DNA from: Xiashengella succiniciproducens | GTDB taxonomy: Bacteria; Bacteroidota; Bacteroidia; Bacteroidales; Marinilabiliaceae | Length of the DNA stretch: 64,000 bases | Assembly (NCBI RefSeq): GCF_023674465.1 | Contig: NZ_CP098400.1 | Span: forward strand, 1,302,001 to 1,366,000 | Direction: 5' to 3' | Shown here: one piece after another, positions 20,767 to 22,665 of the stretch | How positions within the stretch are numbered: position 1 is the first letter of the stretch | Layout of the letters: each line of letters opens with the position of its first letter | Program-made: the position numbers and the translations under genes | The notes under the pieces: model-generated | What the model was told of the DNA's origin: nothing | Databases searched by the model: none | What the model saw: the letters and a program-made list of their open reading frames with translations, nothing else

Positions 20767-20796
20767 AAGAGGTTGCCCTTAATTGGACAACCTCTT
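20767..20796. repeat. 30-bp hairpin, copy 1 (identical inverted copy at 37848)
   Basis: Stem AAGAGGTTGCCC / GGACAACCTCTT with loop TTAATT, lying between the convergent TonB receptor and GH16-fold genes. The same 30 bases occur in reverse complement at 37848-37877, at the end of the IS1182-type element, with 30 of 30 identity. It probably acts here as a terminator. Flanking bases of the two copies do not match. Confidence 0.85.
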
Positions 20797-20816: not shown

Positions 20817-22271
20817 TTAAGCCTGAACAGCTTCGTAGCACCTAACCCAATCAATTTCCATTGTAGCAGGTAATGTTCCTGCTGCCGGTTCTTCCGGCAA
20901 TATTGTACAGAAGCTCAGGTACATTGCTTCATTTGGGATATGCTTTGTTTCCCTTGCAACTTCATGACCGTTGATCTTCCAAATGATTGCTTCAGGACTC
21001 CACTCACATGTGTAAATATAAAACTCATTTTTGAAAGTTGCACCATTTACCTTGTGAGTTCGTTTTGCCAATTCCTTGCCCTCGTTCATATAGACACCGC
21101 ACTCGATATTGTCACCTTTCTTGTAGGCAGTCTTGACGATATCGATATGAGGGGTAATCTTCTCACCGGCCATCCAGAAGGCGCTAACGGCAGGGTAGGT
21201 GGCGCTGAACCTGACCTTGGCCATAAACTTGCCGTACTTTTGACGGAAGCTGCGACCTGTTGAGATAAGTCCTGAGGTATAGTTAAACTGATGGGGGATA
21301 AAGCCCATAGTAAGATCCCAGACTTTGCCCCTGGCTTCTTCCTGGCGGGTAGTGATACGAGCCATACTTTCCCTCAATTCGATATTACGTTCGGTAAAAA
21401 ACTGCTTTTCACTAGCTGGAACGTAATTTTCGTTGATCAAGGCCTTGCCCCAGTAATATCCTGTCATCCACCTGCCGGTATCGAGAGATATTGCGTCGAA
21501 GTTTTCCTCAAAAGTCAGCTTCCACTTCTTGATATCGGTGAATGGGTTCTTTTTCTCTTTCTCAAAGAACCATTTGATTTCTTCGTTCTTCTGAAGCAGT
21601 TTGAACTCATTGATCAGGCGGGCTTCCTCAGACTTTTCGAAGCGCTTACGGTCTTCCATAAAGGCCTTGTGGTCCTGGAATTCCTGAGACTTAATGGTGT
21701 TTTCAAGTTCGAAAAAACCTTTCAGTCGTTCGCTATCCTCCAGTTTGATGACAGTCTTGTACTCCTGTCTGGAGGCCGTGGAGTTGTAAAACTTAATATC
21801 AGCCTGTTTGGAAAGAGTCTTGAATGTCCTGAATTTTGCATAGGCATCAGAAGTTTTGAAGTCCTTATGTGCCTTGGCTGCGATAAACTCGGTCGAATTG
21901 ATGTAGTTTTTGAGTTCGATATACTCCTTATATGATGAAGAAGCCTCGATCTGCCTCATGCGTTCGAGTTTGCCACTCTTCAGATATTTGAAATAGCTTT
22001 TGATGTCGGAAGACGATCTTAGAGCCTTGTACTGGTTGAGCTGGTGCCACTGGGGTGTATCCTTGTAGCGTAATGTCTTGAGCTCTCTAACCTTCTTTTC
22101 AAATTCACCTGAGTGGATCAGTGCATCGAGTTCACGATAACGCCTGAGCAGTTCGGAATTCTCGAAAGCGGTGAATCTCTCGTAATCTGCCTGGGTTTTA
22201 TCGAGCCAGGCCTCGTATTTCTTGGTCGAGGGAAACTTACTGCCTATCTGAATACCAAATATTGTTGCCAT
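20817..22271 (-). CDS. GH16-fold protein with N-terminal helical repeats; predicted non-catalytic
   Basis: 484 residues with no signal peptide (begins MATIFGIQIGSKFPSTKKYE). Residues about 36-240 contain three repeats of 60-65 residues with the pattern E-x-S…Y/F-x-E-L…I-x-S-x-E-F…K-x-L…[D/E]-I-K-x-Y/F. Residues about 248-484 are a concanavalin-like GH16 domain: KLTFEENFD, YTSGLISTG, KYGKFMAKVRF, FWMAGE, YTCEWSPEAIIWKINGHEV, MEIDWVRCYE. The GH16 catalytic motif E-I-D-I-x-E appears as H375-I-D-I-V-K380, so both catalytic glutamates are gone. A binding or scaffold role, perhaps cytoplasmic, is inferred. It is monocistronic; a near-match to a -7 box lies at 22314-22321 on the minus strand. Confidence 0.8.
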   Translation of the reverse strand: MATIFGIQIGSKFPSTKKYEAWLDKTQADYERFTAFENSELLRRYRELDALIHSGEFEKKVRELKTLRYKDTPQWHQLNQYKALRSSSDIKSYFKYLKSGKLERMRQIEASSSYKEYIELKNYINSTEFIAAKAHKDFKTSDAYAKFRTFKTLSKQADIKFYNSTASRQEYKTVIKLEDSERLKGFFELENTIKSQEFQDHKAFMEDRKRFEKSEEARLINEFKLLQKNEEIKWFFEKEKKNPFTDIKKWKLTFEENFDAISLDTGRWMTGYYWGKALINENYVPASEKQFFTERNIELRESMARITTRQEEARGKVWDLTMGFIPHQFNYTSGLISTGRSFRQKYGKFMAKVRFSATYPAVSAFWMAGEKITPHIDIVKTAYKKGDNIECGVYMNEGKELAKRTHKVNGATFKNEFYIYTCEWSPEAIIWKINGHEVARETKHIPNEAMYLSFCTILPEEPAAGTLPATMEIDWVRCYEAVQA

Positions 22272-22483: not shown

Positions 22484-22568
22484 GCCCAGATGGTGAAATT
22501 GGTAGACACGCCAGCTTGAGGGGCTGGTGCCGGTTAACGGCGTGCAAGTTCGAGTCTTGTTCTGGGCA
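22484..22568 (+). tRNA. tRNA-Leu (anticodon GAG)
   Basis: The acceptor stem GCCCAGA pairs with TCTGGGC (22561-22567), with discriminator A. The D-arm contains TGGTGAAATTGGTAGACACG. The anticodon arm is CCAGC-TTGAGGG-GCTGG, giving anticodon GAG. A long variable arm (TGCCGGTTAACGGCGT) follows, then a GTTCGAGTC T-arm. The 85-nt length and long variable arm fit a class II leucine tRNA. CCA is not encoded. Confidence 0.95.
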
Positions 22569-22576
22569 CTTCCCAA

Positions 22577-22664
22577 GGAGAGTTGGCCGAGTGGTCTAAG
22601 GCGCACGCCTGGAAAGTGTGTAAACCTCAAAAGGGTTTCGAGAGTTCGAATCTCTCACTCTCCG
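22577..22664 (+). tRNA. tRNA-Ser (anticodon GGA)
   Basis: The acceptor stem GGAGAGT pairs with ACTCTCC (22657-22663), with discriminator G. The D-arm is GCCGAGTGGTCTAAGGC. The anticodon arm is CACGC-CTGGAAA-GTGTG, giving anticodon GGA. The long variable arm has a stem (AACC/GGTT), and the T-arm contains GTTCGAATC. It is a class II serine tRNA, 8 bases after tRNA-Leu and co-transcribed. CCA is not encoded. Confidence 0.95.
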
Positions 22665-22665
22665 C

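Follow-up and report, generated by a model that had tools for sequence, protein, structure and literature searches.

A conserved predicted pseudoenzyme of the Bacteroidales combines undescribed helical repeats with a GH16 fold

The minus-strand gene at positions 20817-22271 of the window (i.e., the whole stretch of 64,000 nucleotides analyzed here) encodes a 484-residue protein best described, judging from its sequence and those of its relatives, as a conserved pseudoenzyme that carries a new repeat domain: an N-terminal array of helical repeats is followed by a GH16-like domain devoid of both catalytic glutamates. Its profile-based annotation as a glycosyl hydrolase is misleading. The GH16 fold ordinarily serves to cleave extracellular polysaccharides. 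GH16-like domains without catalysis are known from the insect beta-glucan recognition proteins (GNBP), which are secreted, act in immunity, and have a carbohydrate-binding domain N-terminal to the GH16 part. Unlike these, the window protein has no signal peptide and carries helical repeats in front; among GH16 folds that lack catalysis, it is a further case, from a bacterium and apparently intracellular. Nothing was found on such a combination of repeats and dead GH16 domain in the accessible portions of the open-licence literature.

The gene and its GH16 half

The open reading frame is intact and its ATG start is the third codon of a stop-to-stop frame of 486 codons. Since this frame opens only two codons 5' of the ATG, an upstream in-frame signal peptide, one of the points on which the original prediction could have failed, is impossible, and an overlooked earlier start providing such a peptide is thereby ruled out. 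The gene is encoded alone and faces a convergent TonB receptor gene, with a terminator-like hairpin of 12 pairs between the two (20767-20796, minus strand, fold z -4.5), terminator-like sites in the region being no more numerous than in shuffled sequence. Directly upstream, on the other strand, lie the tandem genes for tRNA-Leu (gag) and tRNA-Ser (gga), at positions 22484-22665.

The C-terminal half of the protein (residues 249-484, 20820-21527, minus strand) had been proposed to be GH16-like, and assignment to the GH16 fold can now be made with confidence from the profile match, the structure model and its superposition on known structures. Pfam reports Glyco_hydro_16 (PF00722) over residues 319-476 (E 4.1e-12, 46.3 bits against a cut-off of 22); the AlphaFold model, obtained with 62 sequences, has a mean pLDDT of 92.2 and a pTM of 0.73, and the superposition of its residues 249-481 and a laminarinase gives a Z of 26.8 and an rmsd of 1.7 over 207 residues. 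The same beta-sandwich is found in the laminarinase-like GH16 proteins 6jhj, 3azy, and 4crq (Z 26.5-26.8, with about 21% of the 207-217 aligned residues identical), from which the window protein differs by the absence of the E-x-D-x-x-E motif and of an export signal, and by the presence of the repeats. None of the named GH16 equivalogs of NCBIfam reaches its curated cut-off: EglC scores 57 bits against 700, kappa-carrageenase 30 against 350, and BglS 19 against 300.

Where GH16 enzymes have E-x-D-x-x-E, the alignment places H375-I-D-I-V-K380 (residues 375-380, 21132-21149, minus strand), so that both catalytic glutamates are indeed lost, as originally claimed. The family set in which this motif was followed comprises the window protein, the best 80 of 96 loci from named contigs, 41 genome regions and 28 further loci, i.e., 150 proteins, or 117 distinct ones once 33 duplicates with identical last 230 residues are set aside; one locus (L008), whose frame is broken in the assembly, was left out. 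The outgroup is a small sample of 29 other GH16s, of which 28 come from the class draw and one is the additional GH16 encoded in the window genome. Homologs with an intact E-x-D-x-x-E were looked for, and none exists among the 117 distinct family proteins; the motif is intact in 28 of the 29 outgroup proteins, the remaining one being gapped at this place. While the catalytic pair is thus lost in all members read, the HxDxxK pattern, whose conservation had been put forward as a check, is not conserved: the nucleophile column (375) holds Q in 53 proteins, H in 37, E in 21, and other residues in the rest. At the acid/base column (380), K (63 proteins) and R (31) are the most frequent residues, N, S, C, and others also occur, and the only 2 proteins with E are divergent and have no glutamate at the nucleophile column. 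All 21 proteins with a glutamate at the nucleophile position are without the acid/base glutamate, which hints that the acid/base residue was lost first. Nearly invariant residues of the GH16 half are W318, G323, F324, R343, Q344, P374, W431, N434, and W475. The GH16 domain is accordingly predicted to be non-catalytic throughout the members read, and an active enzyme using the ancestral motif, which is never intact, was rejected for all of them.

The N-terminal repeats

The N-terminal half is all-helical in both structure models. A tip modeled with low confidence and without signal peptide (residues 1-15, 22227-22271) precedes a leading helix, present in the models, in which T16 and E20 are invariant among 62 aligned proteins (residues 16-37, 22161-22226). 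Three helical repeats follow at residues 38-99 (21975-22160), 111-166 (21774-21941), and 179-242 (21546-21737), all features being on the minus strand. The proposal of three repeats holds: a repeat HMM trained without the window protein and its nearest relative matches at residues 38-99, 111-165, and 179-240, with domain E-values of 2.8e-23, 1.3e-19, and 2.5e-20, respectively (the window protein had been part of the seed model used to find the training units), and no unit appears in the shuffled N-terminal halves of the 117 proteins. Their proposed period of 60-65 residues does not, as the units are spaced by about 68-73 residues. Copy number varies widely across the 117 proteins: one copy in 5, two in 13, three in 70, four in 6, five in 12, six in 6, seven in 3, and eight and nine in a single protein each.

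The absence of any characterized domain in this half was likewise borne out. No Pfam family matches the N-terminal half of the window protein, a search with those of 30 members gave only scattered matches (best E 0.009), and no PDB sequence matches at E up to 1. Fold searches with residues 1-246 gave a best Foldseek E of 0.42 and a best VIA Z of 7.1, the level of unrelated helical bundles; neither returned a fold relative pointing to protein binding. A likeness to the eukaryotic FF domain, an idea that arose from the consensus, found no support in the PDB-sequence, Pfam, and Foldseek searches. By these comparisons with Pfam models and PDB sequences, the repeat domain appears to be undescribed.

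The order of the two halves is fixed, with the dead GH16 domain 3' of the repeats in 41 of the 41 regions read; among the 47 repeat-bearing genomes, two (G421 and G494) were left out of this reading and one (G519) was read by eye. In a smaller set, the GH16 domain follows the repeats in 29 of 30 frames, and the thirtieth frame leaves the locus, its GH16 domain being visible in a longer region (L184). A candidate for repeats without GH16, a 231-codon frame in genome G415, was discarded: this frame is cut off by a contig end, and the remainder of a gene starts at the end of another contig, so that it is probably one split gene. A 734-codon frame from another family of the class (G163:C236:67893-68222) weakly matches residues 33-145 (E 8e-4); the repeat profile gave no match in this genome in the class draw.

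Spread, selection, and descent

In the window's own family, the Marinilabiliaceae, 36 of 37 genomes hold a match (one of them an N-terminal fragment only), which suggests that the protein is likely to do something basic there. Six of the 24 other genomes of the order Bacteroidales hold clear relatives and two a weak GH16 match only. The repeat-unit profile matches 47 of 198 genomes of the order; in the class draw (295 genomes) its matches are confined to the window genome plus one other Marinilabiliaceae genome, and in the phylum draw (296 genomes) to the window genome. Across these draws, the repeats were thus found only in the Bacteroidales. Named relatives (the best 80 of 96) belong mainly to the Marinilabiliaceae and other Bacteroidales; L073 and L117, labeled as Chlorobiota and Cytophagaceae, have the match positions of G014 and G023, both from the window's family.

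Both halves of the protein are under purifying selection, as estimated from 14 listed pairs of close relatives, three of which have saturated dS. In the 11 computable pairs, dN/dS is 0.03-0.11 for the whole protein, 0-0.12 for the repeats, and 0.02-0.12 for the GH16 half.

In a tree without L053 and L060, the family proteins group together, apart from 27 outgroup proteins, with a split support of 1.0 as read on the unrooted tree, the family node carrying 0.082 after re-rooting. Its nearest relatives are five GH16s with EIDIFE (support 0.90), among them the Bacteroidota proteins L031, L032, and L033, which share with the window protein a proline before the motif (PPEIDIFE) but differ from it by the intact motif, by N-termini that are hydrophobic by eye, and by the absence of repeats. 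Because these nearest active relatives look exported, we infer an exported ancestry for the GH16 domain. The only other GH16 of the window genome (L060, C1:517159-517614) begins like a lipoprotein and has its motif intact (EIDILE).

Neighboring genes, SiaC, and possible roles

Genes next to the family loci are mostly unconserved. A general operon partner was rejected, since the commonest neighbor cluster, a mixed one from single linkage, occurs at 32 of 80 loci, in most cases on the strand opposite the family gene; at 20 of 80 loci, a gene that by eye resembles peptidase U32 stands on one side or the other. One clade departs from this pattern: of its 11 members, 10 have a co-directional SiaC gene immediately 5' of the family gene, ending about 20-38 bp before it. 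Perlabentimonas gracilis (L132) is one of the species with this operon-like arrangement. Altogether, SiaC adjoins the gene in 4 of 41 regions and 6 of 80 loci, and it is not found beside the window gene. In G060, genes for a histidine kinase and a response regulator precede SiaC. The suggestion of a new system was consequently too strong, as the evidence is for one family, mostly encoded alone, with an operon-like partner in one clade only.

In P. aeruginosa, the helical stalk of the cyclase SiaD carries two similar motifs to which SiaC binds when unphosphorylated, the stalk contact is made by an N-T-S segment of SiaC, and modulation of adjacent proteins has been suggested as a role of SiaC-type proteins (PMC8457831). 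The SiaC proteins of the clade retain the N-T-S segment (residue numbers from the same text), so that the repeats would be a candidate SiaC docking site in this clade. The likeness to the SiaC-SiaD module is that, in this clade, SiaC directly precedes the gene for a protein whose N-terminal part consists of helical repeats; however, the SiaD output is a diguanylate cyclase whereas a dead GH16 domain would be the output here, and most family members have no SiaC neighbor. More broadly, SiaC is present in 32 of 47 repeat-bearing genomes against 55 of 151 others (Fisher p 1.8e-4, not corrected for descent), and, among the 24 genomes of the order outside the window's family, in 5 of 6 against 5 of 18 (p 0.05). 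SiaC was rejected as an obligatory partner because 15 of the 47 repeat-bearing genomes, 13 of these 15 being at least 93% complete, gave no SiaC match. The window genome has two SiaC genes elsewhere (L173:6225-10254 and L174:3298-10032), each adjoining a DUF6272 gene; both sets include an ABC transporter fusion of about 1030 residues and one also a PAS/GAF-SpoIIE phosphatase. SiaC (PF09345) reaches at least 20-21 copies per genome in some Bacteroidales (G052, G369, G374, G396, G489, G514, and others).

The reading that we tentatively place first, short of calling it probable, is that of a cytosolic pseudoenzyme acting as a non-catalytic adaptor, SiaC docking in one clade being part of it. An exported, GH16 glucanase-like ancestor would have lost its export signal and catalytic residues, and its GH16 domain would have been joined to the array of repeats of about 70 residues. 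This array would offer a docking surface that can be lengthened, to which a partner protein binds (in one clade, the SiaC encoded directly upstream), and the GH16 fold would serve as a protein- or ligand-binding head. The presence of one to nine repeat copies with a GH16 domain that is always retained would be expected of a docking array. The location of SiaC away from the gene, in the window and in most relatives, counts against this reading, as do the repeat-bearing genomes in which SiaC was not detected, the fold searches that gave no relative of the repeats suggestive of protein binding, and the ten family proteins with fairly hydrophobic N-termini.

An intracellular lectin comes second, as a possible but rather doubtful alternative. 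The dead GH16 cleft would then bind a glycan, such as a nascent exopolysaccharide, an imported oligosaccharide, or a storage glucan, and the repeats would be a tether or a signal relay. Dead hydrolases turned lectins are of a known kind, the GH16 fold is wholly retained, and many aromatic residues of the GH16 half are invariant; however, columns beside the motif that are conserved in the outgroup are altered in the family (R352 to K, W362, and H394).

Export or surface exposure without a signal peptide, or attachment to the membrane by the N-terminal tip, is unlikely. This possibility is raised by the exported look of the GH16 relatives and by 10 of the 117 family proteins with a 12-residue hydropathy maximum, a crude measure, above 1.6; their tips are hydrophobic, and some are also basic, so that membrane contact or export is possible in some members. 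By contrast, this maximum is at most 1.6 in the other 107 (25 of the 29 outgroup proteins exceed 1.6) and only 0.93 in the first 40 residues of the window protein, which contain no cysteine, and both models leave the tip unstructured (pLDDT below 50 at residues 1-9 in one and 1-13 in the other). An amphipathic N-terminal helix as a family trait was unconvincing, with moments of 0.19-0.62 among the members listed and 0.33 for the window protein. The claim that no export signal is present therefore stands as far as the sequence can tell, and the protein is probably intracellular.

The more specific proposal that SiaC, by docking on the expandable repeat array, controls the non-catalytic GH16 head, which would sense a cytoplasmic glycan or hold a protein complex, and thus defines a new class of partner-switch output, is distinctly unlikely. 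If the SiaC link were true, it would provide a concrete candidate output for the Bacteroidales SiaC copies and, in the partner-switch form, a SiaC effector other than a cyclic-di-GMP synthase; no such target for these copies was found in the accessible portions of the open-licence literature. An enzyme with new chemistry or a relocated catalytic residue seems very unlikely: the GH16 half is under strong purifying selection and has new invariant residues specific to the family, but positions 375 and 380 are diverse, with no single new conserved set. Finally, a decaying remnant of a secreted GH16 enzyme, which the missing catalytic residues could suggest, is hardly credible, as it is contradicted by the selection test and by retention of the gene in nearly all genomes of the window's family.

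A phage or mobile origin was also rejected: none of 50 pattern matches in viral contigs is a relative, and none of the 3 phage and 163 plasmid records that match covers more than 80% of the query, the matches listed being confined to the GH16 half with 26-29% identity. A defense system was discarded as well, with no PADLOC match. PHROG gave one nameless match, in the GH16 half. The Curtobacterium phages Eevee, Yotsuba, and JoyLin encode a minor tail protein with a GH16-like stretch that is 29% identical over residues 331-483 of the window protein.
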